DNA from: Hemileia vastatrix
Lineage: Eukaryota > Basidiomycota > Pucciniomycetes > Pucciniales > Zaghouaniaceae
Length of the DNA: 64,000 bases
Assembly (NCBI GenBank): GCA_030280995.1
Contig: JASXTE010000014.1
Location: 23,717,150 to 23,781,149 of the forward strand
Reading direction: 5' to 3'
Shown: positions 3,717 through 48,089 of the stretch, one piece after another
Numbering within the stretch: the stretch's first letter is position 1
Layout of the letters: every line of letters starts with the position of its first letter
The notes under the pieces: generated by a model
The model's input: the letters and a program-made list of their open reading frames with translations, nothing else
What the model was told of the DNA's origin: nothing
Database searches by the model: none
Program-made: the position numbers and the translations under genes

Positions 3717-5216
3717 TGTCAGCCTGTATATCTCCAGGACTGAGTAAAAAGTGATTATAAGTTATGTTAAACACATGGACTATACATGGGAAAAATAAAT
3801 AAGAGTACACAAATAGTATACATAAGTAAAATTATGATAATACACAAAAAATGCCATTATAACACCTTATATACACGCATATATCCACCTTTTATAGGTC
3901 TTATGTACTTAATATTAAGTTGGAATATGTTAGGGTAATCTTAAGAACCTTAAGTATAAGGCTACATAATTTTTAAGTACACTTAAAGCTGTTATATTCA
4001 TTGTTTTATGCAAAAAACAAGAAATGCGCTTTATTTCACTTAAAAGTTGACTATATGCGCTATAAAATTGAGAATATCGATATTGCGCTTTGACAGATCA
4101 ATTGGGCTCAATTAGAACTATTGATTTGGCTATTTAAATGCATAAAAATAACACTTTTCAAATTTGGTGTTTTTTATGCCAGAAATGGCTTCTGTGTACT
4201 GGCCACATACTGCCTGCTTTTTTCCCGTGTGAATAGCTTCATTTTTAGCAAAGTTAGCTTTTTCACACTATAATTACCCCACATTCTACGCCCACTGTGG
4301 GGAAACACACTAAAATAGGCAACAGGCGCTTATTTAGTGTCCTAGCTTAATTAATAATGCATTGACCTTGTTTATATGCACTAATTTCATTAATAACCTC
4401 ACTCTTGGCACTTTATTTCATCACCATGCTTAAATTTGCCTAATTTTAGTCAAGGATTTACCTGTGCAAGCGCCTTCCAAGAAATGCATGTAGTTACCCC
4501 ACATCTCACGCTCTTTTTTAAGTTTTTGGGTGGCTTCTCAGTCAATTTTGGTTATTTTTGAATGGGAATTTCACGTAGTATAATGTCAGGATTAGCCCCA
4601 TTATTCCTACAGTAAATCCCCCTTATTATTAAGCTATTATTAACCTTAAAAAGTCCCCTTTAGTCTTTTATATCATTGTTTTATACGCATATACTCTCTT
4701 TTTGTCTTTTTCTTTAATTTTGATGGATCTACCTTATTATTACAGTATTTTGGCGGTTGTTACTTGTCTTATTATGTCATGGGTCACTAGGGATGTTGAT
4801 GGGAAGGTCTATTAGTTGTTTTGAGGCGTCATTAACTGTGTATTGGATGGTATATCAAGGGATTTATTGGGGAACTCAGTGTGTATAAAAGGAGGAGGTT
4901 TTTGGGTCTTGTTTCTACATTCTTTATCATTACAATTTAACCAATATAACCAAATCAATTACAATACATATCAATTAGTACTTCTATAAGACTTTTGAAT
5001 AGTATCTGAATTATATAATCTATTTTTCTACCAAATACTAAGATTGTAAGCCATATATAATAATAGTGAGAATTATATTACTGAGACCTTTATATTTGAT
5101 TATATTTTATAACTTAGTGGATTAAAACTACAGTATTCATATAGGACCATTAAAATCTTCTAGACAACTGACTATTCAAGCTAGTTCACGTCCTTGTACT
5201 TGACCTTAGCCTGAAA
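3717..5216 (+). repeat. gypsy1 5' LTR
   Basis: 1500 bp, colinear with 11920-13419 at an offset of 8203 and with no indels that I can see. It contains a good TATA box at 4884. The terminal CA is mutated to AA. Confidence 0.95.
4884..4892 (+). promoter_or_regulatory. gypsy1 LTR TATA box
   Basis: TATAAAAGG is the best core-promoter match in the LTR. It is repeated at 13087 in the 3' LTR and lies about 330 bp before the LTR end. This implies an R region starting near 4910-4920 (inference). Confidence 0.45.
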
Positions 5217-5233
5217 ATTGGGGACCTTTCCTC
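5217..5233 (+). other. gypsy1 putative primer-binding site
   Basis: ATTGGGGACCTTTCCTC directly follows the LTR. The aligned position in gypsy2 (19964) is ATTGGGGGTCTTTCCTT, so the block is conserved although the flanks are not. It contains TGG as expected for pairing with CCA, but I do not recognise the tRNA. Confidence 0.5.
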
Positions 5234-5394
5234 AAGAATTCTGTTATAATCCTGTAAGTGAAATTTTCAAAAGAAGGTGCACGTAAATAATATCCCTATA
5301 GAAATATTTGGATAATTACAACAGGTTGGGGTCACTTATATAGTGATTTCAGAAAAAGAAGCCCTGTTATATAATAAAATTGTGATATTGAATC

Positions 5395-5562
5395 AACAAT
5401 TTTACCACTAATTTAACATATAATTGTTATTAGTGGGTCTGTCAATAGACCAATTAAATTTGTGATCTTTGCAGATAAAATTTTTACCACTAATTTAACA
5501 TAAAATTGTTCTTAGTGGGAGTCTGTCAATAGACCAATTAAATTTGTGATCTTTGCAGATGA
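5395..5562 (+). repeat. tandem duplication in gypsy1 leader
   Basis: Two direct copies of about 80 bp (CCACTAATTTAACATA...CTTTGCAGAT), ending near 5476 and 5560, lie in the untranslated leader between the primer site and gag. Each copy ends in a TTTGCAG acceptor-like motif. Confidence 0.75.
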
Positions 5563-5887: not shown

Positions 5888-6425
5888 ATGTGTGACAACA
5901 ATGAAATTGTAAGTAATAAGGCAAAACCTTATAACTTAAGACCTAGGGCTGAAAGACCTATTACAGGACATTCAAATGGAGGGCCAGGACTCTCCCATAA
6001 TCAACAACACTCCACCAATGTCTCTGGAGGAAAGGGAAAAGCTTCTAAAGCAGGTTTCAATAAAGAAGTCAAAAAATACTTTACAAGAACAAGTTCACTC
6101 CCTATCCACCCTAATGAACACCTTGACAATAAGAGTCAACAACATAGTGGACCAGATCAACAATCTGGAAAAGAGAGCAGCTCAAGGTTTCATAGAAGTC
6201 AACCAAGCTCTAGTGGACATAAAGACTCAACCACCAACAGTGGTATCCAACAATTCCATAGCAACACCTCCAGCCCAAGAGGAGGACCAAAAAATTACAG
6301 TAAGCAAATGGAAATGGGATCGGTACTCCCAAAATTACAACAATCCTCCTCAACAAGGATCCAGCAGTCACCCTTACAGGGGAAAGCCAAGGAGAGGCAG
6401 GGGAAATGGAGTAAGACCTTGGTGA
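5888..6425 (+). CDS. overlapping spliced ORF of gypsy1 (small coiled-coil/basic protein)
   Basis: A 58-nt intron (GTAAGT at 5909, ACAG ending 5966) would join the gag start (ATG 5888, seven codons) to the +1-type frame starting GACATTCAA-ATG at 5967, open to TGA at 6423. The product is about 159 residues: a Glu/Lys-rich helix (MSLEEREKLLKQVSIKK), a Leu/Ile heptad region, then KWKWD and an Arg/Lys/Gly-rich tail ending in Pro-Trp. The same ORF, intron and ending occur in gypsy2 at 20475-21021. Differences there are conservative in this frame (L/I, E/D, R/K, V/I, S/T), which argues for selection on it. Function is unknown. A nucleocapsid-like or regulatory accessory protein is only a guess. Confidence 0.6.
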
Positions 6426-9400
6426 GTCATCCAACTTCTTATGATCAATTACATCAACCTAACAATGAATTACTTATAGGTAATGAGATTGATAAGGAAA
6501 TATTGGATATAATTGATAATGATTTAAAGGATTATTCATTTGGAAAAAATATGTTAAACTTGTCTTTGCACAAAGACAATGTAGATAGTTTTATTGATCA
6601 CCAGGATAATGCTATTAATATTAAAATGGAATCAAATGATGAGTCTTCTGAGTTGGACACAGAAAAAATAGAATATTTTTTAAAAGAAAATCCAATGGAA
6701 TCAAAGATAATAAGTAAATTATTATTGAGAATTGAAAAATTGGAAGAGTTCTCAAAAGAGTCAAACAATAATACAGAAAAGGTATTATTACAGCTAACAC
6801 AATCATTGAGTGCAACAGCCAATAGATTAAAAATTATTGAAAATTCAAATAATGAATTAGTCAATAAGAATAAGGGCTTGAAATCTGAGATTAGAGATTT
6901 AGAAAATAAATTAGAACACTCTCAGAATATTATGGCTACCATTGAGGGACATGTTAAATCATCTTTTTCAAATGTAAATGACACCCTAACTCATGTACCA
7001 GTAATACAGGATAGGTTACAAAGAGTGGAAATAGAAGTAGCAAAAATGTTGAAAAATACTGAAAGAATAAAAGATAACACTTCTTATGTAGCAAGAGTAC
7101 CTGTTTTCATGAAACATGCAAATGAAACACTAATGATGGAACATGAACATAGTATCATGGGCTCTGAGAATATAAAATCAGTAAAAGATAAAATAAATGA
7201 TCATCTTTCTAAAGTAAGTGAATTACTCAATATTCCTCAGGTTAGGGAAGCAAAAACTAGCCAAAAGAACTGGCCTAAGTTAGATCAGTACCCTTCTTTT
7301 GACGGGGATTCAAAATCTGATTGGCAACAATTCATACAAAGAATTGATAACTTAAAATTTTCATACAAATTACCTGATGAAGAAATTACTTCAAAGTTAA
7401 TATCTTTATTTACAGATGTGGCCTTATTATGGTTTGAATCTGTATTGAGTGAGGGAATTAATTACTCCTGGAATGAATGGAAGGCACTAATTGAAAGGCA
7501 ATTTGGTGGCCCAAAATTTAGAATCACTCAACAAAGACTGTATGAAAGGGCCAGATATAATCCAAATGCTGGAGATAAACCCATGGTCTTCTTAATGAAT
7601 TTAATAAAAATCATGAAAGCTATGGATCCAAAAATGGATTATGAAGAGTGGAAAGAAAAAATAATATACAAGTTGCCTATATCAGTTAGAGACATTATTG
7701 TAGCTAGAACTGAAACTATCAGAGACACCTCTGGATTTATTAATATATGCAATGAGATATTATTAAACCACAAGTATGAAACCAAGTATAGTAATTACAG
7801 ACAAAGTGTTGACATGGTAAAACCTACTACAAGTAAGTTACCAGTGGAGAAGAAAAAACCTTCAGCTCCCCTTGTCCCTAAGAGACAAGAAAATAACACT
7901 TGTTACAAATGTAATGAACCTTAGGTTAAGGGTCACACGTGTAAGAAGGGAATAAATATTATTGAAACCTCACAGAATTCTGAACCTAGTAATCATGAAG
8001 ATGAGAATGTGGAATCTAGTGAGGATTGCAAAAGTAACATATCTTACAGTGATGATGAAAATGAGATATTTGTATTAGAACAGGATGTAATGTTCCTGAA
8101 TGATGCTATACCTCATACAGACACATCTTTAACTTCCATAGAGGAAGCTGAAATAATTAAAGATGTATTTCATGATACTTAAAAAATAATACCTATCAGA
8201 GCACCTATTATCATATGTGGAAAAGAAATGAATGCCATTCTTGACACTGGGGCTGCAGGTAGTGTAGTTTCAATTAATACATTAATGAAACTTGATAGTA
8301 AGTACCAGGAAAAACTAGAATCTGTTCAGACAAAGAACTGGAGAGGTTTTGGTTCAGTATTAAATCCAATTGGCAAATATAAAACTGCTGTATTCTTTAA
8401 ATATAATAATGGATATGTTAGAGCAGTTTGTGAATTTGTAGTAATGGATAATAATAATTGTAGTGATTGGTTTATTATTGGCAATGATTTATTGACAAAA
8501 TTTGGCATTAAACTAGATCCTGAAAACAGTTGTTTCACCATAGGCGTGAATGGTAAAAGAAAATTCAAAATATGTTCTGAAAATTCAGTATATACCATTT
8601 CTCCTAGAAAAGAACAACTGCAAGGTGGAAGAACCACCAATGAAGTGGTTGAATTGGAAAATGAAATCCAAAAGGCCTCTTCCAGTCCTCAACTCTCAAA
8701 AATTGAAGAAGAAGATATTTTGAGATTGATTAAATCATATCCTATGGCATTTGCTCATGGTTCAAATGAACTAGGATTGGTCAAAGACCATGAGATGAAA
8801 ATCTCTCTAAGCTGTGATTTGGATAATATTCCTGGCAGTCTAAAAAAGAAACCTTACCCAGCATCTCCTGCAAAAAGGAAAGATATTGAAGACAATATAA
8901 AATTGTTGTTGGAAATGGGTATTGTTGAAAAAGTGGACACAAAACCTAAGTATTGTGTCATTTCACCAGTATTAATCTCTTATGAAAAAGATAAGGCAAG
9001 ATTATGCGGTGATTATAGAGCTCTGAATACATACACAGTAGATGATATTTACCCTCTACCAAGGATAGCTTCTATCCATGCTACCTTACAAGGAGCAAAA
9101 TATATTTCCTGTCTGGATGGGAACAAGGGTTACCACCAGATTCCTGTGGAAAGAAATTCTCAAAATTACTCATTAATAACCACACATATGGGTATATATA
9201 AGTATGTGAGAATGCCATTTGGCCCAAAAAATGCGCCTTCAGTCTTCCAAAAATTGATGGATAGTGTTTTTAATCAGGAAATGGTTAAAGGATGGCTATT
9301 GGTCTATATTGATGACATCATAGTGTTTTCAAAAACATATGATGAACATTTAAATCACCTGAAAAGAGTCTTTCAAAAAATGGATGAAATTAATATGACT

Positions 9401-11740
9401 ATTGCATTAAAGAAATGTAAGTTTGGATTTCAATCTTTGAAAGTACTTGGACATGTTGTATCTGGATTACAAATTTGTGTTGACCAGAATAAGGTGGCAG
9501 CAATTAAAAACATTGGGATACCCAAAAATGTAAAAGAGGTTCAAAGTTTTTTGGGTATGTGTGGATATTATAGACAATATATTAAAAATTACCAATCCAT
9601 TGCAGCTCCTTTAACAACATTAATCAGGAAGAATGAGGCTTTCATTTGGAATAATGAAAGACAACATGTCTTTAATAAATTAAAGGAATGTTTAATGTCA
9701 GCTCCAATATTGAGACTGCCAGATTTCACCCTACCTTTTATCTTGTACACTGATGCAAGCTTCACAGGTTTAGGTGCTGCTTTACAGCAGAAACAGATAA
9801 TAAATGGAAAATTATCTGAAGTAGTTATCTGTTATATATCCAGAACCTTAAGAAAAACTGAATTAAGGTATGGTGCCACACAGCTAGAATGTTTAGCCAT
9901 GGTGTGGGCTTTGGAGAAACTTCATTACTATCTGGAAGACCAGAAGTTTGAACTTATAACAGATTGCAGTGCAGTAAAATCATTACTAAACATGAAAACA
10001 CCTAATAGGCACATGTTTAGATGGCAACTAGCTGTACAAGAATACAGGGGAAGAATGACAATCACTCACAGAGCAGGAACATTGCATTCAAATGTGGATT
10101 TATTATCCAGAAGTCCTTTGCCAAATGATGCTGACAACCCAGCTTATGTACCTGAAAATGAGGTTATACATATATTTGGGATTTATATAGTGTATTTAGA
10201 AGAAGAGTTTATGCAAACTATATTGGAAAATTATTCATCTGATAAAGATTTGTCTAAACTATCTACCATTCTTATTGATCCAACAAATGCCTCCATGAGT
10301 GCATTAATTAAGACCTTGCCTCCAAAGTATAAAAATGCGTTGGAAAAAGGTAAACTATCAATTGAAGATGGATATATATATTACAGTAAAAAGTTAAGCA
10401 ATGTAATAGTAATACCACCTTCTATGAAAGAGTTAATGTTGAGTACCTGTCATGATGACATCTTAGCTGGTCATTTTTATTTTAACAAAACATTAACCAG
10501 AGCTAAAAATACAGCCTGGTGGATAAACATGAAAGAGGATGTACAAAAATACATTGAAACATGTGACTCTTGTCAGAAATCTAAAAGATTAACTGGGAAG
10601 AGAGCTGGGTTGTTACAACAAATAGAGCAGCCAAAAGCTCCATGGGAAATTATAAACATGGATTTTGTAACTGGCTTGCCATTAGCAGGAAAAGAAAGTT
10701 TCAATGCTTGCTGGGTAATAGTGGATAGATTAACAAAAATGTGTAAGTTTATCCCTACCCATAAAGAGGTATCTGCAAAAGACTTGGCATTATTATGGTG
10801 GACTCAGATGATGAATACTGCTGGGTTCCCCAAAGCCATAATCTCTGACAGAGATCCTAAATTTACTTCAGAGTTCTGGACATCCTTGATGGAAGTATCA
10901 GGTTGTCAATTAAAATTGTCTACAGCACACCATCCACAAACTGATGGGCTGGCTGAGAGGATGATACAAACTCTAGAAGACATGATCAGAAGATATTGTG
11001 CCTTTGGATTAGAATACAAAGACAATGAGAAATTCACACATGACTGGGTAACATTAATTCCTGGCCTTGAATTTGCTTATAACAGCACAACTCATTCTGT
11101 AACAGAGAAGAAACCATTTGAACTCTGGCTGGGATACGTACCAAATACCCCAGTAAATCATTTAAATAAATTACCAAGGTTGGATATACACCCTGGCACT
11201 AAATCCTTTATTCATATGCAACAAATGTGTAGAAAGCATGCAGAAGAATGCATCCAAAAATCATTTGAATATGAAAAGAAAAGGTGGGACAAATCTCATA
11301 AAGAATTTGAATTCAAAAAGGGAGATGAAGTCCTCATATCAACACTACATTTTAACTTACAAGGTAATGTAAAATTAAAGGATCCCTTTGTAGGACCTTT
11401 TTTAGTAAGTAAAATGGTTGGGAATAATGCAGTGCAAGTCATATTATATGCTCCATATGATAGGAAAAATCCAGTTTTCCCTATCTCATTATTGAAACCT
11501 TACCATGCAAATGATCCTGACTTATTTCCAAAAAGAAGGGGAAGGCCTAAAAAGCAACCTGAAGAAATTGTGGAAAAAGCAGAGATTGAAAAAATACTCA
11601 AGAAAAGAATCCTTACTAAAGAAAAAGGAACTGAGTATTTACTAAGATTTAAAGGGAAATCAAATGAATTTGATAAATGGATACCTGAAAAAGAAATTTC
11701 TAATTTATCCACCCTTCTTAAAAAATTTAAACAGAAATAA
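5888..11740 (+). pseudogene. gypsy1 Gag-Pol polyprotein, two internal stops
   Basis: One frame of about 1950 codons, as in Tf1/sushi-like single-ORF elements. The first ATG is 5888; a GTG at 5882 is in frame. Order: disordered basic N-terminus (overlapping another ORF), coiled coil, capsid region (DWQQFIQRIDNLKF), a CCHC-like knuckle (CYKCN) and protease (ILDTGAAGS, about 8240). Then come reverse transcriptase with YIDD (about 9305), RNase H (YTDAS, about 9745) and an HHCC integrase with DFVTG, SDRDPKF and the Glu in DGLAERM. A C-terminal chromodomain (about 11560-11730) ends in Lys-rich residues. TAG at 7922 replaces the Trp of gypsy2 inside the zinc knuckle, and TAA at 8180 lies just before protease. 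Otherwise the frame is intact, so decay is young. Confidence 0.93.
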
Positions 11741-11919: not shown

Positions 11920-13419
11920 TGTCAGCATGTATATCTCCAGGACTGAGTAAAAAGTGATTATAAGTTATGTTAAACACATGAACTATACATGGGAACAATA
12001 AATAAGAGTACACAAATAGTATACATAAGTAAAATTATGATAATACACAAAAAATGCCATTATAACACCTTATATACACGCATATATCCACCTTTTTTAG
12101 GTCTTATGTACTTAATATTAAGTTGGAATATGTTAGGGTAATCTTAAGAACCTTAAGTATAAGGCTAAATAATTTTTAAGTACACTTAAAGCTGTTATAT
12201 TCATTGTTTTATGCAAAAAACAAGAAATGCGCTTTATTTCACTTAAAAGTTGACTATATGCGCTATAAAATTGAGAATATCGAAATTGCGCTTTGACAGA
12301 TCAATTGGGCTCAATTAGAACTATTGATTTGGCTATTTAAATGCATAAAAATAACACTTTTCAAATTTGGTGTTTTTTATGCCAGAAATGGCTTCTGTGT
12401 ACTGGCCACATACTGCCTGCTTTTTTCCCGTGTGAATAGCTTCATTTTTAGCAAAGTTAGCTTTTTCACACTATAATTACCCCACATTCTACGCCCACTG
12501 TGGGGAAACACACTAAAATAGGCGACAGGCGCTTATTTAGTGTCCTAGCTTAATTAATAATGCATTGACCTTGTTTATATGCACTAATTTCATTAATAAC
12601 CTCACTCTTGGCACTTTATTTCATCACCATGCTTAAATTTGCCTAATTTTAGTCAAGGATTTACCCGTGCAAGCGCCTTCCAAGAAATGCATGTAGTTAC
12701 CCCACATCTCACACTCTTTTTTAAGTTTTTGGGTGGCTTCTCAGTCAATTTTGGTTATTTTTGAATGGGAATTTCACGTAGTATAATGTCAGGATTAGCC
12801 CCATTATTTCTACAGTAAATCCCCCTTATTATTAAGCTATTATTAACCTTAAAAAGTCCCCTTTAGTCTTTTATATCATTGTTTTATACGCATATACTCT
12901 CTTTTTGTCTTTTTCTTTAATTTTGATGGATCTCCCTTATTATTACAGTATTTTGGCGGTTGTTACTTGTCTAATTATGTCATGGGTCACTAGGGATTTT
13001 GATGGGAAGGTCTATTAGTTGTTTTGAGGCGTCATTAACTGTGTATTGGATGGTATATCAATGGATTTATTGGGGAACTCAGTGTGTATAAAAGGAGGAG
13101 GTTTTTGGGTCTTGTTTCTACATTCTTTATCATTACAATTTAACCAATATAAACAAATCAATTACAATACATATCAATTAGTACTTCTATAAGACTTTTT
13201 AATAGTATCTGAATTATATAATCTATTTTTCTACCAACTACTAAGATTGTAAGCCATATATAATAATAGTGAGAATTATATTACTGAGACCTTTATATTT
13301 GATTATATTTTATAACTTAGTGGATTAAAACTACAGTATTCATATAGGACCATTAAAATCTTCTAGAAAACTGACTATTCAAGCTAGTTCACGTCCTTGT
13401 ACTTGACCTTAGCCTGACA
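11920..13419 (+). repeat. gypsy1 3' LTR
   Basis: 1500 bp from TGTCAGCATG to CTGACA, preceded by the purine tract GGGTGGGCGAG. It pairs with 3717-5216, with about 19 substitutions, most of them C/A or G/T differences. 11741-11919 between the stop codon and this LTR is AT-rich 3' untranslated sequence. Confidence 0.95.
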
Positions 13420-16400
13420 AATATGCCCTTACTGTTTGCAATCTTGATCAGTTCCTGGATGAAAATAATCCTACTCCTTCTGATCCAGATCTTCTCTCTC
13501 TTTTCAAAATTAAGCAGAGGCAAACTAATACAATCATTAAAATGTATATGGACCGCGCGAATCAACATAAGTTTATATTGGACAATGATGCAGTTGAACC
13601 TGCTCAATTATAGACTCGAATCAAAAATCACCACACCTCAAAATCTAGCTAAAATTACTCTTATGTTATCAGTAAGCTGTTTAAGATTAAGTATATGGAA
13701 AGCAATCTTCTTGAGGCTATGGATGAATTTTGAGGAACCATAAAACTACTGCGTGACGTGGCACCCAATCTGTTCAAAGAAAACATTCTTTCCTACATAA
13801 TGGGCAACTAAGTACTCAACCTTCTCCCCGAGTCTTATCAAACCGCTGCTACTATCATTTTAAGCAAGTATGATATTACCAATCAAAGACCCACTATTGA
13901 AACCATATTTGCAGATGTTGAAACAGAAGTGACTTGTCGAAAGGTTCTCAGTACCTCTAACTCTACATCTGGTACTATTTTGACTGTGGTCACCAAAACT
14001 AGAATCTATTGCTCAAAAGGCAAACATAACCCATTGGCCCCTCATCCCAAATCCTCCTGTTTTCAATTACATCCGGAGAAACGTGAGGAATTTCTCGAGA
14101 GTAAAAAGGAACAGGAAACTAAAACCACCGAAGCTCAACATAAAGTTCTATCTGTTTTTGCCAATCTTCCCCTCAATCACGCCATCCTGGACAGTGGCGC
14201 TTCCTACTCTATATTCAATAACAGGGACTTATTTAAGCACTATGAGAACTCTAAAATCTCATTAACCCTGTCAAATGGGGATGAAATTCTTGCCCTCAGA
14301 CAAGGAAGAGTTTCATTTACCTCATCATCTGGCCAGGAATTGTCCATAAATTGTGTTCTATACATACCGTCAATTAAAGTCACACTAATTGCTATAGTGG
14401 ATCTCCTCAAAAATGGACTCTATCTTGAAAACAATAATGGGACTTTCAAAATCAAAGAGAAAGGGACAACTCTCATCGAATGTTCCACTAAGGGGAGAAT
14501 CATTAGCTTCCCATTAAGAAGCTATTCAATCTTTAATATCAATTTATCCGCATCAAAATGTGAAAATCTTAGTCTTCTTCATCACAAATTTGGACATCCT
14601 AGTAATGAAACCATGGAAATTATTTTTCCAGGTTTGAATTTTTCTCAATTCAATTGTGAAACGTGTGCTCTTGCTAAATCACATATCTTACCATTTTCCT
14701 GTTCTTTTCCATCACCCAAATCCCCTCTGGATGTCCTACATATGGACCAATGTGGACCAATCACTCCCAAATCTAATGGTAGAAAATCCTATTTCTATCA
14801 AATTGCTGACGGATACTCTTGATTTCAACATGTTTTCTTCTTGAACCTCAAATTTGAAACCTTCGAGAAGTACAAAGAATATGAAAATCTAGTAGAAAAT
14901 TAACTTGGTCAAAAAGTCAAATCTATTGTCTCTGATAATGGAGGAGAGTTCACTAGTAACAGCTTCAAAAATCATATCAAAAGCAAAGGGATTAATCATT
15001 TATTAACTGTACCATACACTCCTCAACAGAACCCTATTGCTGAGAGGGGGAATAGGACTTTAGTCGAAAAAGCAAGATGCCTACTTATTGAATCAGGTCT
15101 CAATTCTTATTGGTGGGCCAAAGCCATTAACACAGCCACCTTTCTTCTCAATATACTTCCTACTTTGGCACTTACAGGTCACAAGACCCCTTGGGAGCTA
15201 TGGTACAGAGAATCTAACAACATACCAAGAAAACTTCATCCCTTCGGCTCTGATGAAGTTTACTATCAACAGAAACAGTACAGAAATGGCAAATTTGATG
15301 GAAGTGGGTCCGAGGGAATATTCCTTGGTTATTGTGAGGGTCATATAAATTATCAAATTTATTCCCCAAGTACTGATTCTATTACAATCACCCACAATGT
15401 TGAATTTTTAAATACCTTTGAACTAGCTCCTAAAATATCAAAAGGAAGTCCCATTGACACATTAATATTTCCAGATTTGGTTTTCACCAAAATCCATTCG
15501 AGTGAACCGCTCTCTAAATCAACAAATCACAAAACTGAAAAATTCAACATTCCCACCTTCACAGAAATCGTCGATACAGATGCTCCTGAAAATGTTCCTC
15601 CCTTACCTTCTGCTCCCAAAAACTATGCTTACATAGACAAAAATGCCAGACCAACTAAGGAAATTTCTTCTGATATTAATCCTGCCAATATTCTTCAAAC
15701 AAACTGACAAGGGAATCCTCTATGTCTTACTATAACGCCTTATAATACTCTGAAAAATTACTATGAAGCCATTAATTCACCTGAAAGTGATGAATGGCTC
15801 AAAGCTATTCAATCTGAACTCACAAGTATAGCTAAACATCAATTTTGGGAAGAAGTTTCACCACCTAGTCACAATCATCTCTTAGGGACTACCTGGACAT
15901 TCAAAAAGAAGACCGATGCCAAAGGTAACATAATTTAATACAAAGCCAGGCTATGCGTGCAAGGCTTTTCTCAAATAGAGGGTATTGAATATAAAGAAAC
16001 ATTCACACCCACAGGGAGATTACCTAAATTACAATTCTTACTCGGTGTTGCGGCATTCAAAAATTGGGAGCTACATCAAATAGATGTTAAGTCTGCTTTT
16101 CTACATGGGGAACCAGAAGAAGATATTTATCGCCGATTTCCCAGCGGTTATTCACCCTCAAAGAGCAAAAATTGCTTGTTCCTCAAGAAGTCTTTGTATG
16201 GTCTTAAACAGAGCCCTAGATGCTGGTATTGCAAACTATCTTCCTTCTTTAACGACATCAATTTCAAAGCTAGTAAAGCCGATCCCTGTCTTTTCTACAA
16301 TAATGACTCCTCAAATCTTTGTTATGTCTATATCCATGTTGATGACCTAATCATAGGCAAACCATCCATCCAAGACTTCAAAAACAAAATATCTCAAGTG

Positions 16401-18786: not shown

Positions 18787-19963
18787 TGTCAGCCTAAATA
18801 TCCTTAGGACTGAGTATTTCTTATGCTTAAAATAAGATAACCTTAAGTAAATTAAGCTTATATCTTAAAAATAAGGTTAAAATAATAATATATATTATTT
18901 TATTATATATATATATAATTATTATTCTATTATATAATTTATAATAGTTTAAATAGCTTATCCATTGCCTAATAATACTTATTATGGTGTTAATGGAGTC
19001 ATAATATACTTATCTTAAGTGATATGAAGTAATTATTGACATACATAAGCTTATATGTATACATAAATCTCATATTCAGTGAAATATGCAGTATATTATG
19101 TATATTTAGGTATATAAGTGGGTTTTAGCCCCTTAATAGCCTATAACCTTTGTTTTTCTGCTTATTTTAGGTCATATGGACGAAATCAGTGGACTCACAA
19201 CGCCTACAGAAGCATAGACACCTATATCAGGCTCATACACCCAGTTTGGACAACTAAAATTACTTCCTTGGATGGTTATTCACGGATTTATGGGTTGGAA
19301 AGATGTTTTTGGGTTAATGTGGATGCTTGGGGATGTTATTGGGGGCTTGGACATTTTATTTGTTTCCTTTATATGCTTTTAGTTTCATTAAATCTCTTTT
19401 TGATCATTTATTTTACCTGTTTCTTTATGGTATCCGCTTTTATCTAGGTTTTCTATTTATGGTATGACTCTGTGTTATTATTAATAGTGATGGAGGGTCC
19501 TTACTGGAGTTCTGGGTGTTGAAACTGCTTGAAGTGGACGCCATGGGGAGGTGATGGGCCCTCACAGTGCTGTAATTGCCGGGGATAGCAGTGACATCAT
19601 CTGGATTGAAGGTCTGTGCACTCCAGTGGATTTGGGTATAAGTAAGGAGGGATTTTGACGGTTTATTATCATCATTCAATTACTACACTTCAAACAAACA
19701 CTACAATACAATTATTAGTATTCAGAAATATATTAATAAGCCCTTATAAATTGATATTATCTTTATAAAAGCTATAACTATATTTTATTCTTCTATTTTC
19801 CACTACTAGCACGCATTTAAATCCAAGTATTGTGAGTTTTATTTGAGTATAACTATTCTATTAGTCTTCCCCTGAGTTTTAATCACTAAATCATTTATTA
19901 ATAAGTAGTAGGACCATAAAATAACACTATTATATCATACTTATATACTAGACTATACTGACA
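18787..19963 (+). repeat. gypsy2 5' LTR
   Basis: 1177 bp, near-identical to 26456-27611. It carries an extra segment of about 20 bp near 19320-19345, a local duplication around GCTTGG. An open frame of 109 codons in both LTRs shows no recognisable domain. Confidence 0.95.
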
Positions 19964-19980: not shown

Positions 19981-20474
19981 ATATTTTACTTATTATTTAG
20001 TATAAGCCTTGGGATGTGATTTTTACCTTAGTACAACTCAAAATTAACCAAATATTTGGGTCTGCTGCATATTAGTGGGTCATCATAGCTCATTGATTGC
20101 GGAAAAGAACCCTTATAATAATTGTACTAATTTTTTATCATAAAAATTAGATATTTACAGTAGTAACTGTACCCAATATAAACCCAATTTCACTTGGTAT
20201 TTGGACACCAATATAACACCCAATTAAATTGGTATTTGGCTAAAGCTTGGTAAGCTAATTATTCACCCTTATAGAGGTCTAGTTAAACTTATTATTATAT
20301 TTTTAACAGATTTTTTCGAATTTTTCTTATATTTTATTTAAATAAATAAAGATATAAATTCAGGGTAAGCTCCATTGCTTTTTTATTAGTAATATAATTA
20401 CTAATATCTTTTGTCTACTAATTCCATAGAGTTTTTTCCTTTTGTAGACGTAAAATATTGTTATTCTGAACAAT

Positions 20475-21021
20475 ATGAGTGCTCCCCAGGATAGTGTAAG
20501 TGAACAGCCTGCTTATAATACCAGGTCTAAAGCTAACAAAAACTTTCCAGGACATCACCATGGAGGGACAACAGTACCCCCAGCCAGAAAGCATGAGTAT
20601 AGAGGAAAAGGACGCCCTCTTAAAAAAGATAACTATCAAAAAGACGTCTCCTCCTCTTCAGGATCAACTGTCCCACCTGGCCAAACAGGTTCTGAAGTTG
20701 GAGGAATCAAAATCTCTCATGTTCAAAGAAGTAGAGCAGTTGCAAAACAATTTCAAGGTAGGATTTCAGCAGATGAATCAGGCAATGGCAGAATTAAAGG
20801 GAGGCCAGCCCAGTCAATCAAATCAGCAACCTCCTACCCAAGGAGGGTCCACTCACTCCCAGGAGAAAATCCTGGTAGACAAATGGAAATGGGACTGGTT
20901 TCACCAACAGTGGACAAGCCACAGTTGCAACAGGGATCCACCCCCTCATCTGACTTCCTCAGCTCACCCTTACAAGGGAAAAAAGCGCCAAAAATCAGGA
21001 CTGGAAACCATCCCTTGGTAA
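20475..21021 (+). CDS. overlapping spliced ORF of gypsy2 (homologue of 5888-6425)
   Basis: ATG 20475 and seven codons, then a 55-nt intron (GTAAGT at 20496, TTTCCAG ending 20550, branch-like GCTAAC). Exon 2 starts at 20551 (GACATCACC-ATG), in frame with an ORF closing at TAA 21019. The product is about 162 residues: MSIEEKDALLKKITIKK, a coiled-coil stretch, KWKWD and a basic tail ending Pro-Trp. Intron position, phase, the ATGGAGGG that follows and the final TTGG-TRAGT are shared with gypsy1. It fully overlaps the Gag N-terminus in another frame, and no domain is recognisable. Confidence 0.6.
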
Positions 21022-24000
21022 GTAACTTACCCTCTCAGATTAGACATAATACTGATAATTACAATATAGGTAATTCTATTGATGTTAAATCTGTACAAAA
21101 AATAGAGGAGGATTTAAGAAATTTAGGTTTTAGAGTAGATACACCTGACTTGTCTTTTGTCCATAATAACAGTACTATATACAATGATAATACAGTTAAT
21201 CCTCAGTTGCAACCACCTACTAGTGAGATGAGAAGTTCACAGGAGAGTGAGAGAATTGAAAAGGAGGACATGGAATATTTTAACAATAATCCAACTGTCC
21301 ATAGAATTGTTTCAGCATTGTGGAATAGAATGACTGATTGTGAGGAACAGACAGTTAAGCTCACTAGTGATACAATTTCATCCTTAACATTGAACATTTC
21401 TCAATTAGCAACACGTAATAAAGAATTAGAGAAAGAACATTTGTCTCTAACTCTTAAATATGATTCATTGAGTAATAAATATAATGACCTTTCAAACAAA
21501 TTTTGTGAGTTAGAAAAATTATATGAAACACATTTATTAAAAACTGAATCAAGAACAAAGTTATCTTTTGCACAGACAAATCAAAGTGTCTCTGAGCTGC
21601 TACAAAGATTAACTAAAGTTGAGATTGAAACTGCCAATCTACTGATGAACCAGGATAATCATAAGTATAATCAATATAATAATAATCCTTTCATTGGCAA
21701 AAGTGAATCTCATTCCTTCCCTGTACCACCACAATTAAAACCATCTGGTGGTAGTGTCAAATCTGAAAATGTAAGTCACAAATCCGTGCAGGAAGAAATA
21801 CAAGACCATTTATCAAAAGTGAATGAGTTGTTGAATTTACCTAAGATTAGTGAGATAAAATCCAATCAGAAGAACTGGCCTAAAATAGATCAGTAACCAA
21901 CTTATGATGGGGAAGCCAGCTCTGATTGGCAACATTTTATTCAAAGAATTGACAACTTGAAATTCTCATATAAGTTACCAGATGAAGAGATAACATCAAA
22001 ATTAATTTCTTTATTTAAGGATGTTGCTTTATTATGGTTTGAAGCTGTCTTAAGTGAGGGTAGAGACTACTCTTGGGCTGAATGGAAACAACTTATTGAA
22101 AAACAATTTGGAGGTTCTAAATTCAGGCTTACTCAGCAGAGACTGTATGAGAAGACTAGGTATAATCCGTTGAATGGTGACAAACCTATGGTATTTTTAA
22201 TGAATTTAAACAAAATATTAAAAGCCATTGAGCCTCATATGGATTTTAACTTATGGAAAGATAAGATAATATACAAATTACCTATATCTGTCAGAGACAT
22301 TGTTGTAGCTAGAACATTAAATGTTACTGAATATTCTGACTTTATTAATATTTGCAATAAAATATTATTAAACCATAAGTATGAATCAAGGTATTCCACT
22401 TATAAGCAAAATGTTGAACCTGTAAAAACTCAGAATTCAAAAACACTTCAGGAGAAGCAGAAAAAACCTACTGCACCTGTAGTACCTAAAAAGTATGAAA
22501 CAAATACTTGTTATAAGTGTAACAAACCTTGGGTCAAAGGTCACAAATGTGAGAAAAACATAAATATTGTTGAAAATCAACGTGAATCTGAAACTGAAAC
22601 TGAAAAAAGTAAAGAATCAAGTGATTATGACAGCAATATCTCATATAGTGATGAAAATGAAGTCTGTATGTTGGAAGATGATTTGTCCATCTTTGAAAAT
22701 CCAATATTAAATATGGACTCAAATGAATCTTTAATGAATTTTGAGGATGCTGAAATCATTAAGGATATACAAGCTGATAACTTTAGAATGACACCTATCA
22801 CGGTTCCAGCTATCATTTCTGGTGAAAATGTTAATATAGTATTGGACACAGGAGCTGCTGGTTCAGTTGTTTCCACTAATACATTACAGAAAATTGATAG
22901 TGAATATAAGTTTAAGCTTGAACCACTTCAAAATAAAAATTGGAGAGGTTTTGGATCAGTACTACACCCCATTGGTAAATACAAAGCTGCTGTTTTCTTT
23001 AAACACCAACATGGTTATGTAAGGGTAACTTGTGACTTTGTAGTAATGGATAATACTAATTGTAGTAACTGTTTTATCATTGGAAATGATATTCTGACTA
23101 AATTTGGTGTAAAATTAGACCCTGCTAATAATAATTTTACAATTGGCATGAATGGTAAAAGGAAATTTATAATAAATTCTTTTAACAAAGTCTTACACAT
23201 TGAGTCAGTAACAAATTCCCCGTCTAAAGGAAGAGAATCCAATGAGATGGAACTTCTGGAAACAGAAATTTCAAAAGCATCATTTGGCACTCAGATAAGT
23301 GAAACTGAGAAAGATAATATTTTGGAATTAATTAAAGCTTTTCCAATGGCTTTTGCACATGGTACAAATGAACTTGGCCTTGTAAAAGATCATGAAATGA
23401 AAATTAGTTTAACCTGTGATATGGATAATATTCCTGCTAGTCTTAAAAAGAAACCATACCCTGCTTCACCAATGAAGAGGAAAGACATAGAGGATAATAT
23501 TAAGATGTTATTAAAAATGAACATTCTTGAGAAGGTTGAAACTACACCAAAATATTGTGTAATATCACCAGTGCTGATTTCTTATGAACAAGATAAAGCA
23601 AGACTGTGCGGTGATTATAGAGCATTAAATACATTTACAGTAGATGATATTTATCCCTTGTCAAGGATTGCCTCTATACATGCTACCCTTAAAGGTGCTA
23701 AATATATAAGTTGCCTAGATGGAAATAAAGGGTACCATCAAATTCCTGTTGAAAAGAATTCACAGAACTTTTTGTTGATAACAACACACATGGGAATTTA
23801 TAAGTATGTCAGAATGCCATTTGGACCAAAGAATGCTCCATCAGTATTTCAAAAGTTAATGGATATAACATTCCATAATGAAATGATTGAGGGATGGTTA
23901 ATGGTATACATTGATGACATCATAGTGTTCTCTAAAACTTTTAATGAACACTTAATCCATTTAAGGAAAGTATTTCAGAAAATGGATGAAATAAAAATGA

Positions 24001-26342
24001 CCCTTGCATTGAAAAAATGTAAATTTGGGTTTGAATCTTTAAAAGTGCTTGGTCATATTGTATCTGGCTTACAAATATGTGTAGACCAAAATAAAGTGGC
24101 TGCAATAAAGAATATTGGCATTCCTCAAAATGTGAAGGATGTACAATCTTTTCTTGGAATGTGTGGTTATTATAGACAATATATAAAAAACTACCAATCA
24201 ATTGCTGCACCACTGACCACACTGATAAAGAAATCAGAAGCTTTCATTTGGAATAATGAAAGACAACAAGCTTTTAATAAGTTGAAAGAATGTTTAATGA
24301 CAGCTCCTATCTTGGGATTACCAGATTTCCAATTACCTTTTGTATTATATACAGATGCAAGTTTTATTGGACTGGGTGCTGCTTTGCATCAAAAACAACT
24401 TATTGAAGGTAAAATGTCAGAAGTAGTAATCTGCTATATTTCATGTACTCTGAGAAGTGGTGAATTGAAATATGGTGCTACTCAACTTGAATGTTTGGCA
24501 GTAGTATGGGCTCTTGAAAAGCTACATTATTACCTTGAAGACCAAAAATTTGAGTTAATAACTGACTGTAGTGCAGTTAAGTCACTCTTAAACATGAAAA
24601 CTCCTAATAGACACATGTTTAGATGGCAATTAGCTGTACAAGAATACAGAGGACGGATGACTATTACACATAGAGCAGGAACCTTGCACTCTAATGTAGA
24701 TCTGTTATCTAGAGTACCTCTGCCTAATAATGATGATAATCCTGCTTATGTTCCTGAGTCAGAGATTATTAACATTTATGGCATTTATATTGTAGATCTT
24801 GAGGATGAATTTATGCAATCAATTCTTGATAATTATAATTCAGATCCTGACTTAAGTAAATTAACTACAATATTAAATGATCCATCTAATGCTTCAATGA
24901 ATGTTTTAATAAAAACATTACCAAATAAGTATAAAGAGGCATTAGAGAAAGGAAAATTTTCCATTGAGGATGGTTTTATATATTACAGGAAAAAATTAAG
25001 TAATGTAATTGTAATTCCCCCTTCAATGAAGGAGTTAATGTTAAGTATATGTCATGATGATATATTAGTAGGTCATTTTGACTACCATAAAACATTAACC
25101 AGAGTAAAAAACACAGCTTGGTGGATTAACATGTCTGAGGATGTTCAGAAATATGTTGAAACATGTGATTCTTGTCAAAAATCTAAAAGATTAATAGGAA
25201 ATAGAGCTGGTTTATTACAACAAATTGAGAAACCAAAAGCTCCATGGGAAATCATTAACATGGACTTTGTAACAGGTTTTCCAATAGCAGGGCATAAGAG
25301 TTATAACTCCTGCTGGGTAATTGTAGATAGATTTACAAAGATGTGTAAATTTATTCCTACCCACAAAGAGGTTTCTGCAAAGGACTTAGCTTTTTTATGG
25401 TGGACACAAATGTTAAATACAGCAGGTTTCCCCAAAGCAATAGTTTCTGACAGAGATCCTAAATTTACTTCTGAGTTCTGGACGTCACTTATGGATGTTT
25501 CAGGGTGTCAATTAAAACTTTCTACAGCACACCATCCACAAACTGATGGGCTAGCAGAAAGAATGATACAAACCTTAGAAGATATGATAAGAAGATACTG
25601 TGCTTTTGGTCTTAATTTTAAAGACAATGACAAATTCACGCATGATTGGGTAACCCTTATCCCAGATTTAGAATTTGCATATAATAGTACAGTACATTCT
25701 GTCACTGGCAAAAAGCCATTTGAGTTATGGTTGGGTTATGTACCTAATACCCCTGCTAAAACTCTTAATAAGTTACCTAGATTGGATATTCATCCAGGTA
25801 CTAAATCTTTTCTTCAGATGCAGGAATTATGCAGAAAACATGCTCAAGAATGTATAAATAAGGCTTTTGAGTATGAAAAGAAAAGATGGGATAAAGCCCA
25901 TAAAGAACAAATGTTCAAAGAGGGTGATGAAGTCCTTATTTCAATGCTACATTTCAATTTAAATGGTAATGTTAAATTGAAGGATCCATTCATTGGACCA
26001 TTTGTAGTTAAAAAGATGGTTGGTAATAATGCTGTTGAGGTTATTCTATATGCACCTTATGATAGAAAACATCCAGTATTTCTTATTTCTCTTATAAAAC
26101 CATACCATTCAAATGATACTGCTCTCTTTCGAAGAAGATCAGGAAGGCATAAACAGCAACCTGAAGAAATAGTGGAAAAGGCAGAAATTGAAAAGATACT
26201 TAAAAAGAGACACCTTACTAAAGAAAAGGGAGTTGAGTATCTATTAAGATTTAAAAATAAATCAAGTGAATATGACCAGTGGATTCCAGAAAATGAAATC
26301 TCTGATCTTAAAAATCTCTTGAAAAAATTTAAATCTAAATAA
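20475..26342 (+). pseudogene. gypsy2 Gag-Pol polyprotein, one internal stop
   Basis: A single frame of about 1955 codons broken only by TAA at 21894-21896 in the capsid region. Gypsy1 has Tyr (TAC) there, so a single C-to-A change is the simplest explanation. After the stop: capsid (LKFSYKLPDEE), an intact CCHC-like knuckle (CYKCNKPWVKGHKC, about 22509), protease LDTGAAGS (about 22842), RT with YIDD (about 23910), RNase H YTDAS (about 24349), HHCC integrase with DFVTG, SDRDPKF and DGLAERM, and a C-terminal chromodomain (about 26170-26335). Chromodomains in chromoviral integrases are known to direct insertion to marked heterochromatin. The gene would be full-length but for one codon. Confidence 0.94.
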
Positions 26343-26455: not shown

Positions 26456-27611
26456 TGTCAGCCTAAATATCCTTAGGACTGAGTATTTCTTATGCTTAAA
26501 ATAAGATAACCTTAAGTAAATTAAGCTTATATCTTAAAAATAAGGTTAAAATAAGAATATATTTATTTTATTATATATATATATAATTATTATTCTATTA
26601 TATAATTTATAATAGTTTAAATAGCTTATCCATTGCCTAATAATACTTATTATGGTGTTAATGGAGTCATAATATACTTATCTTAAGTGATATGAAGTAA
26701 TTATTGACATACATAAGCTTATATGTATACATAAATCTCATATTCAGTGAAATATGCAGTATATTATGTATATTTAGGTATATAAGTGGGTTTTAGCCCC
26801 TTAATAGCCTATAACCTTTGTTTTTCTGCTTATTTTAGGTCATATGGACGAAATCAGTGGACTCACAACGCCTACAGAAGCATAGACACCTATATCAGGC
26901 GCATACACCCAGTTTGGACAACTAAAATTACTTCCTTGGATGGTTATTCACGGATTTATGGGTTGGAAAGATGTTTTTGGGTTAATGTGGGGGCTTGGAC
27001 ATTTTATTTGTTTCCTTTATATGCTTTTAGTTTCATTAAATCTCTTTTTGATCATTTATTTTACCTGTTTCTTTATGGTATCCGCTTTTATCTAGGTTTT
27101 CTATTTATGGTATGACTCTGTGTTATTATTAATAGTGATGGAGGGTCCTTACTGGAGGTCTGGGTGTTGAAACTGCTTGAAGTGGACGCCATGGGGAGGT
27201 GATGGGCCCTCACAGTGCTTTAATTTCCGGGGATAGCAGTGACATCATCTGGATTGAAGGTCTGTGCACTCCAGTGGATTTGGGTATAAGTAAGGAGGGA
27301 TTTTGACGGTTTATTATCATCATTCAATTACTAAACTTCAAACAAACACTACAATACAATTATTAGTATTCAGAAATATATTAATAAGCCCTTATAAATT
27401 GATATTATCTTTATAAAAGCTATAACTATATTTTATTCTTCTATTTTCCACCACTAGCACGCATTTAAATCCAAGTATTGTGAGTTTTATTTGAGTATAA
27501 CTATTCTATTAGTCTTCCCCTGAGGTTTAATCACTAAATCATTTATTAATAAGTAGTAGGACCATAAAATAACACTATTATATCATACTTATATACTAGA
27601 CTATACTGACA
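26456..27611 (+). repeat. gypsy2 3' LTR
   Basis: 1156 bp, preceded by the purine tract GGGGTGAGGGAG. LINE sequence resumes at 27612. 26343-26455 is the short AT-rich 3' untranslated part. Confidence 0.95.
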
Positions 27612-30298
27612 TGGATAGTCTAGCCATAGGGTTAGACGAGGGAATGGTAAGGAGGCGAGCCCATGCTCTACGCACTACCAAATCCAGTCTTTGCTTGCAT
27701 GAGAGTGAGGATGAGTCATGAAGGAGGAGGCATACTGGTGTGGAACGAAAACAACCTAGGGCACGTCGAATGGCTTTATTGTCGACTATTTGGAGCATCC
27801 TTGTGGTGCGGGTAGATTTCAGGGGGGAGTGCCAGATGATTGCGGTATAATCGGTTCTTGAGTGGATGAGGGAAGAGATGAGGAGTTTGTATTGGTGGAG
27901 AGGGATGCCCCAACCAGAGGAGGCAAGGCGATGTAAGGTGGAGGAGGCTTGAAGACTGCTGGCAACTAATTTAGTACCATGAGGTTTAAAAGAAAGGGTA
28001 GGATCAAGCAAAACACCTAGCCATTTGAGGGAAGAAGAAGAGGTGAGAAGGCGGTTGTCAAAGGAAAGGAGAGGAGGAGATTTCAGAATTGATGGTTTTT
28101 TGGTAAGTAACATCCACTTTGTCTTGGCCTTGTCAAAAACTGCAGCATGAGAGAGGCCCCAGGACATTGCTTCGGTGCCAAGGAGAGCCAGATGTTGAGA
28201 TACTTCCTCTGGATCTTTATCTGCGGCAAGGAAAATAACATCATCAATAAATCCTAAGGCAAGACAGGAGGGGGAGAGAGAGGGGAGGGTGAGTAAGCCT
28301 GAATTGTAAATAATGTATAGAAGAGGGGAGAGGGGGGAGCCCTGAGGGAGGCCCTTAGGGCTAAAGGTGGGAGAAGATTCATAAGAAGAGAATGAGATGC
28401 TGGTGGAGCGGTTAGTGAGTGAATTTATGATGAGGGAGATAAGGTCCCGAGGGAGAGGGAGGGAGAGTAAGGCATGGGAGAGACGGCAAAGGTTAACAGA
28501 TGGGAAGGCGCCCTTGACATCTAATGACAAAGCCCCTACTACCTTACCAAGGCGCCATTGGTCCTTGGTCCAGGTGGTGAAGTGGAGAAGGGCGTAAGAG
28601 GTACTGCGCAAGGGACAACCGCCGTAGTGAGTTTCAGGGAGGAGGTTTGCTGATTCCATAAGAAACGATAGGCGGTTGGTAAGGAGAGAGTCGAGGAGTT
28701 TACCCATAGTGTTGAGAAGAGCAATAGGGCGGTAGGCACCAGGAACAGTATAATCTGGCCTTCCAGGTTTGGGAATGATTACCGTTTTTGCTTGTTTCCA
28801 GATGTCAGGATAGTGACAAACCTGTAGACATTGCTGGAAAAGAGGAAGCAATAAGTTAGTTACGGCTTTTGTGTTACAGTGAAGAAGAGCGTTGGGTATG
28901 GTGTCAGGCCCTGGGGCCCTCCTTTCTTTAGTTTTGAGTAGGGTAGAGAGTAGCTCGTGTTTGGTAAAGGGGAGAGACTTAGAAGGAGGGGAGGGCCAAG
29001 GAGGAGGAATGATGGACAAGTCGCATGGAATGGAGGCGACTGAAGTACCTTCAAAAAGGACAGAAGCTTTCGCTAAATTGTCAGTTATTAATCTACCAAC
29101 CTCATCAGTAAGGGGGGGGTTGGATTTTTGTATTGAAAATTGTGAAAGATACTTAGCAGGTTTATGCAGATTGTGAGGGGTAAGAGAAGAGAGAAATGAG
29201 CGCCAGTGATGCTTTTTGAGAAATTTGATTTTGGCGCGGAAGGTTTTTCGGGCTGACAGGAACACGGCAATGTTGTGGGGGGTAGGGGAAGAACGCAGGG
29301 CCCATTGGGCTTGGTAACATGACTTCTTGAGGGGGTCCAAGATGTCTCTTTTCCACCATACACAACATGACACACCGGGCTGCTGCAGCGGGACAAAACG
29401 ATCCATTAGTTCGATAAAAGAGGAAGTAATTGATTCAGCAGCCTCATTGATAGAAGCAGGGGAAGGAGAGGGAGAGGGGGGAGTAATAGAAGCAAGAGAG
29501 GAATGGAGAGAAGACTTATCAAACACATTCCAGTTCCGGAAAGGTTTGATAGGGGGGAGGAAAGAGGAGAGGAGAAGGCGAGTGATGATAGAGCGGTGGT
29601 CAGAGAGATGTGAGGACGACCCGTCTCTGTCTGTAATGCAGCTGATAACTGAATCTAGAGCCAAACTATTGACAAACACTAGGTCAATCACCGAGGTGAA
29701 ATTCCTGGTGTTGCAAAAGGTAGGAACTCCAGCTTGAGATATCAGAGACATATTAAGATCAGTGAGCGTGTCTAGAAAGGGAGAAGCTTCGGGATGGTTG
29801 GAGGAGTGATGATTGACACTAGCCCATAAGTCATGGTGAAGGTTAGAGTCAGTAAATATAAAGGTAGGGGAGTTAGAGAAAGGGGAAAGAGAAGGAAAAA
29901 TGAGGGGCGTTGAGGTGAAGGTTTTAGGCGGATTATAAATGTTGGCAAAAACAATCGAGGAAGATTTAAGTTGAAAATTGAGAAGAGTGAGGTCGGGGGA
30001 GGGGCTGGGGAGAGGAGTAAAGAGATGAAGAGGAAGCTTTTTTTTTAACATAAAAGCAGCATCGCATGGGGGAAGGAGACAAAGAGGGAGGAAGGAGAGG
30101 AGTGATGAGGTGCCATCCTTTAGCTGGGGCAGGAGAAACGTGGTTTGGAGAAAGGAAGGGTTCTTTAAGGGCTAATATGTCAAAAGAGGGGGTGGCCAAA
30201 TCATTGAAAAGCGAGTGGAAGACATGGAAAGAACAATGACAATTTAATTGAAAGACAGAAAAAGGCGAAATGGGCAATTGATTAGGGAGAGTCTTCAT
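27612..30298 (-). pseudogene. LINE ORF2, N-terminal part (endonuclease and reverse transcriptase)
   Basis: Starts 30298, 135 nt after the ORF1 stop. The first 84 or so codons hold the start of the APE-type endonuclease (FQLNCHCS..., DILALKEP). A one-base shift in a nine-T run (30038-30046) leads to the main frame. There the endonuclease continues (FANIYNPPK, TDSNLHHDLW, SDHRS), followed by RT with RRAPGPD, YRPIALLNT, LSLDVKGAFPSV, LPQGSPLSP and the catalytic FIDD. The frame is interrupted by gypsy2 at 27611 and resumes at 18786. A shift at a homopolymer could be a real mutation, programmed slippage or a base-calling error. Confidence 0.9.
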
Positions 30299-40875: not shown

Positions 40876-41409
40876 TGATCTCCAAAGACTGCAGGCACAA
40901 GTCCAGCACAAGAACACTTCTGTCTTATGCACTATGCACTATGCAATATGTCTTATACACTATGCAATATGTTATATGCACTATGCACTATGCAATATGT
41001 CTTATACACTATGCAATATGCAATATGCACTATGCACTATGCAATATGTCTTATACACTATGCAATATGTTATATGCACTATGCACTATGCAATATGTCT
41101 TATACACTATGCAATATGTTATATGCACTATGCACTATGCAATATGTCTTATACACTATGCAATATGTTATATGCACTATGTCACATGCACTATGCACTG
41201 TGCACTATGCAATATGTCTTGTGCACTATGTCTTATGCACTATGTCTTATGCCCTATGCACTATGCAATATGTCTTATGCACTATGTCTTATGCACTATG
41301 TCATATGCACTATGCACTATGCAATATGTCTTATGCACTATGTCACTATTATGCACTATGCTCCTCATCTCCTTCTCTTCCCCTCCTTTTGTTGTCTTGA
41401 CTTTCCTTC
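40876..41409. promoter_or_regulatory. shared upstream region of NAR1 and NSE4
   Basis: The 534 bp between divergent start codons must contain both promoters. Some 440 bp is the heptamer array, leaving only about 46 bp on each side. No canonical TATA box is obvious. Confidence 0.5.
40922..41361. repeat. heptanucleotide array with a 49-bp higher-order unit
   Basis: The block is built of 7-mers of the form GCACTAT, GCAATAT, GTCTTAT, ACACTAT, GTTATAT. In the left half seven heptamers recur as a 49-bp unit, seen about four to five times; the right half is more irregular. Because 7 is not a multiple of 3 and no stop arises, all three plus frames are open through it. It separates NAR1 and NSE4. Confidence 0.9.
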
Positions 41410-47472: not shown

Positions 47473-48002
47473 TTTTTTTCTCTTTCTCTTCAAATTATCA
47501 ATTTGCATGTATTATTCACTGAGAATGGAAATTTTTTTTGCATATTTTTTTGGTTTTTGAATTTGCTGTTAAAGTCTTATTTTTTTTTCTCTCTGTGTTT
47601 TCTTTCATCAACTCAACATGAAATCGCATATTTTCAGCAAACACATATTTTTTCAGTCACTCAAAGGTTGGGAAAGAGTTGGAAGGGAAGATTAAGGGTT
47701 CCGAGGCATTTTAAATGAAGAAAAGGGTCTGGGAGAGGTTGAGAGGGGTGAAATGGGGATCAAAAGAGGATGGCATACAATGGGGCTGGGAGGATAGCGA
47801 AAGGCATGGGGAGGGAAGACAAGCATGTGTTGATAGAATTGAAAGGGATGGAGATTGGTGCAAACAGAGTGTGAAAATAGGAGGATGAACTCTTTTCTTC
47901 GGGCGAAGAACAGAGTTCACTTCCATAAAATATTAGCTGAAACATAGTTTTCAATTCTGTAAAAACAGTTGTAAGTAATAGAAAAAGTCACTGATTTTTT
48001 TT

Positions 48003-48089
48003 CTATGTAATCCTTGCTTTACGAGGAGACTTTTGTGACGAAGCAGATTTTTGAGCTACCCTTTGAGATTTGGAATGTCTGGGAGGCAT
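48003..48089 (-). CDS. small basic ORF, duplicated at 48424-48338
   Basis: Begins MPPRHSKSQR and has a Ser/Lys/Arg/Gln composition. It ends in a stop after 28 residues, and the second copy is almost identical. Position and strand (convergent to the transposase) would suit the start of the accessory Harbinger protein, but no continuation can be found. Function unknown. Confidence 0.2.
   Translation of the reverse strand: MPPRHSKSQRVAQKSASSQKSPRKARIT

Follow-up and report, generated by a model that had tools for sequence, protein, structure and literature searches.

In the genome of the basidiomycete Hemileia vastatrix, LTR retrotransposons of the Ty3/gypsy chromovirus type almost certainly carry a second gene inside gag, which is reached by splicing and maintained by selection in a reading frame other than that of Gag. 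The usual description of Ty3-type elements, and of chromoviruses in particular, is that they require Gag and Pol only. Here, the removal of a short intron after the seventh Gag codon leads into an overlapping frame for a protein of about 160 residues, which may act as a regulator of the element's own unspliced RNA.

Two chromovirus-type elements with the same layout

The window, by which we mean the whole stretch of 64,000 nucleotides analyzed (contig JASXTE010000014.1, positions 23,717,150 to 23,781,149), contains two such elements, E1 and E2, both on the forward strand. By BLAST limits, E1 is enclosed by LTRs at 3717..5218 and 11920..13422 (98.7% identical) and E2 by LTRs at 18787..19963 and 26456..27611 (97.5% identical), and the LTRs of both elements begin with TGTCAG. 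Pfam matches place reverse transcriptase, RNase H, and integrase in that order in the Pol of each, followed by a C-terminal chromodomain. In the unspliced reading, the Gag frame of E1 (5888..7924) stays open across both introns until a stop at 7922-7924, and Pol, with all four domains, follows in the same frame (8228..11740). The Gag frame of E2 (20475..21896) stops at 21894-21896, and the same frame resumes beyond that stop with the Gag core and Pol (21957-26342). Close to the end of Gag, a CCHC-like knuckle can be read from the sequence. The single Gag-Pol frame is broken by in-frame stops at 7922-7924 and 8179-8181 in E1 and at 21894-21896 in E2, so that both window copies are mildly decayed despite LTRs that are 97.5-98.7% alike. 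The leader of E1 also contains a direct repeat of ~100 nt (89%) at 5375-5476 and 5455-5560.

An earlier note on this DNA had described an open reading frame at 5888..6425 that is entered through a 58-nt intron at 5909-5966, and it is present exactly there. Exon 1 of E1 (5888..5908) comprises Gag codons 1-7, which are common to Gag and the spliced product. Intron 1 (5909..5966, GTAAGT..ACAG), which is read as Gag if retained, is a prediction, with a position, phase, and 3n+1 length class that match those of E2 intron 1. Exon 2 (5967..6425) is the overlapping frame, with 152 codons and a stop, ending in Pro-Trp. The same architecture had been claimed for the second element, and E2 indeed has a shared exon 1 of Gag codons 1-7 (20475..20495), a 55-nt intron 1 (20496..20550, GTAAGT..CTAAC..CCAG), and an exon 2 of 156 codons and a stop, again ending in Pro-Trp (20551..21021). 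In both elements, exon 2 lies in a frame other than Gag's and is entered in phase from exon 1, and the two peptides are conserved from end to end (E = 1e-27), in agreement with the alignment first noticed.

If retention of intron 1 is to yield Gag-Pol, the Gag frame has to stay open across the overlap. There are no Gag-frame stops within the overlap of either element; when the overlapping frame was shuffled synonymously, the mean number of such stops was 6.4 for E1 and 5.6 for E2, and none of 2000 shuffles reached zero. This supports the proposal that the intron-retaining RNA is read as Gag-Pol.

Elsewhere in the window, a LINE-type ORF that encodes an endonuclease and a reverse transcriptase adjoins the 3' LTR of E2 (27601-30051, reverse strand). 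There are two probable host genes, one for a protein resembling the large subunit of iron-only hydrogenases (39047-40234, reverse strand) and one for an Nse4-like protein (41695-42234, forward strand). Upstream of the latter, a dense array at 40823-41410 lies in overlapping open frames, its copies recurring at intervals of 14, 21, or 28 nt. A tandem duplication of ~335 nt (98% identical) occupies 47838-48518, and an inverted repeat of ~580 nt (92% identical) lies at 56763-57341 and 58405-58980.

Intron-less genomic copies demonstrate splicing in the E2 family

A 135-nt query across the exon 1-exon 2 junction of E2 was searched in the same genome, giving 863 first-look candidates, from which 40 copies were scored. 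Five of these matched the junction without interruption (99, 98, 98, 92, and 95% identity; one of the matches begins only at query base 17), and the remaining 35 matched in two pieces with the intron in between. Three of the five intron-1-less copies were read (L058, L059, and L060); the other two are located at C579:26481277-26481410 and C103:5209514-5209632. Each extends into the end of the 5' LTR, lacks intron 1 precisely, and has exon 1 fused to exon 2, encoding 163 aa that begin MSAPQDS, continue across the junction with DITMEGQ, and end TIPW. L058 is without four stretches, each an exact GT..AG interval: leader intron A (20250..20309, 60 nt, GTAAGC..AACAG), leader intron B (20365..20429, 65 nt, GTAAGC..CATAG), intron 1, and intron 2 (21018..21069, 52 nt, GTAAGT..CTGAT..ATAG), from where it runs uninterrupted to 22022. 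L059 and L060 are missing intron 1 alone and contain the other three, and four further E2-type copies (L036, L052, L053, and L048 with L051) retain all four introns.

These E2-family copies are reverse-transcribed spliced RNAs; copies free of introns are what reverse transcription of spliced RNA would leave behind. Splicing of intron 1, as the earlier note had proposed, is thereby shown for the E2 family. Because the intron-less copies belong to that family, splicing in the E1 family is the expectation from homology and splice sites. The original claim did not extend to the further introns, which can also be removed. The existence of two splice forms calls for two or more separate events, unless the template was switched between a spliced and an unspliced RNA.

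In E1, intron 2 is predicted from homology to its E2 counterpart (6422..6479, forward strand, 58 nt, GTGAGT..CTAAC..ATAG). The stop codon of the overlapping frame falls within the intron 2 donor (TGG/TGAGT in E1 and TGG/TAAGT in E2), and AG/GTAAT follows 52-58 nt past this donor, preceded in E1 and E2 by a branch-point-like CTAAC or CTGAT. Intron 2 was measured in seven of the 14 copies described below (58 nt in E1, L030, L041, and L056a; 55 nt in L042a; 52 nt in E2 and L048). All of these lengths are 3n+1, as are those of intron 1 wherever measured, and in all seven copies the Pro-Trp end of the protein is unaffected by removal of intron 2. The location of the stop in a donor suggested a third coding exon after exon 2, but this was rejected, since the codon that follows removal of intron 2 is predicted to be TAA in the seven measured copies and is TAA in L058. 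GTAAT stands directly after intron 2 (6480 in E1, 21070 in E2) in the seven measured copies, where it gives an immediate stop in the spliced frame and resembles a weak donor. Recursive splicing at AG/GTAAT is unsupported, as L058 continues without a gap to 22022.

Spread of the overlapping frame in the genome

Relatives of the peptide were sought in 24 stretches, each 10 kb long, of this 747.6-Mb genome (22 at round-number positions and two flanking the window). They occur in 11 of the 24 stretches as 12 copies, or 14 with E1 and E2 counted, and these fall into about five sequence families that share the layout: family E1 (E1, L037, and L056a), family E2 (E2, L036, and L048), family C (L029, L030, L054, and L056b), family D (L033, L041, and L047), and family E (L042a). 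The frame is open to Pro-Trp in 9 of the 14 (E1, E2, L030, L041, L042a, L047, L048, L056a, and L056b); premature stops are found in L029, L033, L036, L037, and L054, and Gag-frame stops in L030 and L042a. A GTRRGT donor stands 55, 58, or 64 nt (all 3n+1) 5' of exon 2 in every copy except L036, and a YAG acceptor is present in every copy except L037. The sample contains one more gag-core copy, L042b, upstream of which no relative of the peptide is present. Neither the E1 nor the E2 peptide matched the distant Ty3-type stretches sampled, which are degraded and carry little weight.

The spliced frame is the selected frame

The earlier note had also reported that the Gag-frame translation is the less conserved of the two, and counts of synonymous and nonsynonymous changes in both frames between pairs of copies favor the overlapping frame likewise. 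The gap-free alignment of E1 with L056a spans 456 nt and contains 48 substitutions. Of these, 26 are silent solely in the overlapping frame (11.5 expected in the absence of selection) and 5 solely in the Gag frame (11.2 expected), while 16 are silent in neither frame (25.1 expected) and 1 is silent in both (0.2 expected). By hand calculation, the nonsynonymous/synonymous ratio of the overlapping frame for this pair is ~0.25. Between L041 and L042a, the latter carrying two Gag stops, 60 of 143 substitutions are silent solely in the overlapping frame (33.4 expected) and 27 solely in the Gag frame (37.0 expected). More distant pairs show the same tendency toward overlapping-frame selection in weaker form. 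Copies of the young E1 family, 20 of 21 of which could be used in gap-free form, gave no signal either way: the 13 exon 2 changes seen in at least two copies comprise five synonymous in the overlapping frame only, four in the Gag frame only, and four in neither. Judged by the substitution counts, it is the overlapping, spliced frame, and not the Gag frame, that is shown to be under purifying selection, and N-terminal Gag seems mainly to need to remain open.

The ~160-residue product

Six aligned peptides, two of them near-identical, are 152-180 aa long and have invariant residues that include M4, IKK, WxWD, HPY, and the final PW. Five of the six are free of cysteine and the sixth has one, and the tail after HPY carries a net charge of +4 to +6 in all six. 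AlphaFold2 (single chain, two sequences) predicts a short helix at residues 20-29, a long helix at 39-87, and a largely disordered C-terminal part. The block at residues 41-80 reaches a pLDDT of 94-97; with a mean pLDDT of 64.7 and a pTM of 0.31, the helices alone are usable from the model. The long helix is probably a coiled coil. A loose hydrophobic export-like pattern appears in two of the six peptides, within the long-helix region. The coiled-coil, basic accessory protein envisaged in the earlier note therefore stands as to its long helix (predicted with high confidence), its basic tail, and, for the E2 family, its spliced RNA, while "accessory protein" is a functional label and should be read as putative.

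A protein search with the overlapping-ORF peptide found no homologue among 5.8 billion proteins, a collection that may contain few eukaryotic transposons (10 candidates for the E1 peptide, 208 for an alignment of two peptides, and 737 for one of six; none passed). IMG/VR, which may likewise hold few eukaryotic transposons, yielded no relative, whether queried with Pol or with the peptide, for which none of 16 pattern matches was confirmed. Comparisons with Pfam and the PDB returned weak matches, mainly to coiled coils, with no G domain among the Pfam matches listed; the coiled-coil matches are too weak to be accepted as homology.

Proposed mechanism and its precedents

We propose that alternative splicing lets a single transcript of these chromoviruses yield two products. 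The intron-retaining RNA would serve both as the genome and as the mRNA for a single-frame Gag-Pol, while loss of intron 1 would join the first Gag codons to the other frame and give the ~160-residue protein; intron 2 and both leader introns would also be removable, as in one copy (L058). With four usable introns, such an element has to bring its RNA out of the nucleus unspliced. The protein may self-associate through its predicted helix, its basic tail may bind unspliced RNA, and it may favor the export, intron retention, or packaging of that RNA, whereupon Gag-Pol could be made. Since spliced RNA was itself reverse-transcribed, any discrimination against it would be leaky. Taken as a whole, a spliced-RNA product that acts, by convergence, as a regulator of unspliced RNA of the CERV or Rev type is the explanation that we consider probable, with the regulatory function itself suggested by analogy.

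The closest precedent is Cer1, a Ty3-type LTR retrotransposon of Caenorhabditis elegans, for which CERV is described as the product of a spliced RNA with exon 4 in a frame other than gag (PMC10309623). According to that source, export of the unspliced Cer1 genomic RNA needs CERV, and with a stop that affects CERV specifically, neither cytoplasmic genomic RNA nor Gag expression can be detected (PMC10309623). The product here resembles CERV, as described, in coming from a spliced RNA, in sharing its N-terminus with Gag, in having an exon out of the gag frame, and in its helical or zipper part; as in Cer1, moreover, the unspliced RNA encodes Gag-Pol with no stop between them (PMC10309623). The two are set apart by description, CERV having 517 aa, five exons, a cysteine loop, and a G-protein-like domain (PMC10309623), whereas the product here has ~160 aa and no conserved cysteine. 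CERV also belongs to another host and element lineage. The conserved cysteine-rich loop and G-protein-like domain that characterize the CERV family are not seen in the peptides, which counts against the regulator reading, as do the lack of a clear nuclear export motif and of a homologue of known function.

Rev and Rex are small retroviral proteins made from spliced RNA with a basic stretch of the RNA-binding type. The present product would be comparable to them in its size, its spliced RNA, its basic RNA-binding-type stretch, and perhaps its self-association, if the long helix acts as a coiled coil (for Rev, see also PMC10309623). In contrast to Rev and Rex, its ORF lies in the 5' part of gag, and an export motif is not clear. 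Extra conserved proteins beyond Gag-Pol are described for other LTR elements as well, namely, the additional ORFs of plant LTR retrotransposons, which lie between pol and the 3' LTR (PMC7264820), and brtn of the Boty elements in Botrytis, a fungal case that is antisense according to a cited title (PMC8365987). As described in these sources, neither overlaps gag in the sense direction or is reached through a gag intron. Judged from titles and the beginnings of abstracts, full-text searches of open-licence papers brought up no spliced or gag-overlapping extra gene of this kind for fungal or chromoviral elements.

Alternative explanations

The main rival takes the spliced product to be a structural or nucleic-acid-handling partner in the particle, a coiled coil with a basic tail like LINE-1 ORF1p, and not a regulator of splicing or export. 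The long helix and basic tail would suit this role, and the weak profile matches are to coiled coils, including LINE-1 ORF1p at E 0.67; set against this, Gag already has its CCHC-like knuckle, and a particle protein would not need a separate spliced RNA. Neither objection is strong, and we regard this reading as unlikely but worth serious attention.

The methionine at residue 4 of exon 2 leaves room for a protein made chiefly by internal initiation on unspliced RNA, with splicing secondary. This methionine is conserved in all six aligned peptides and in E2 sits in CACCATGG, a strong start context, and the leaders contain few upstream ATGs (E1 and E2 each have a single one ahead of the gag start). 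Yet intron 1 is truly removed in RNA, its donor, length class, and phase are preserved in 13 of the 14 copies, and the residues before the methionine (D/N-[IV]) are constant across families while the Gag residue there shifts from His to Cys, and we consider internal initiation improbable as the main source.

The p22 protein of Ty1 is a Gag fragment read in Gag's own frame. A spliced product that restrains the element by copy-number control in the p22 manner, instead of aiding it, would fit a protein encoded in the element's own gag region and the coexistence of many copies. Unlike p22, the protein here is not Gag and shares only its first codons, and we give this idea little credence. An artefact, in which a chance open frame coincides with unrelated deletions in the intron-less copies, is scarcely credible, for although the E1 open length was reached in 71 of 2000 synonymous shuffles of Gag, the intron-less copies already contradict it, with four exact GT..AG losses in one of them (L058), as do the peptide conservation and the selection counts.

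Implications

Returning to the regulator reading, we tentatively suggest, at less than even confidence, that the protein represents a new class of Rev/CERV-type RNA regulator, encoded wholly within the DNA of the Gag frame in a clade of chromoviruses, in which the spliced frame would be the selected gene, N-terminal Gag a passenger that stays open, and the introns a switch between regulator and Gag-Pol. For annotation, the finding is a warning, as this gene escapes both filters that demand an intact Gag-Pol and element models drawn without introns. For the elements themselves, a selected, spliced second gene inside gag that is common to several families of one genome would mean that they face the same difficulty as retroviruses, that of protecting an RNA with introns from splicing, and have found an answer to it.
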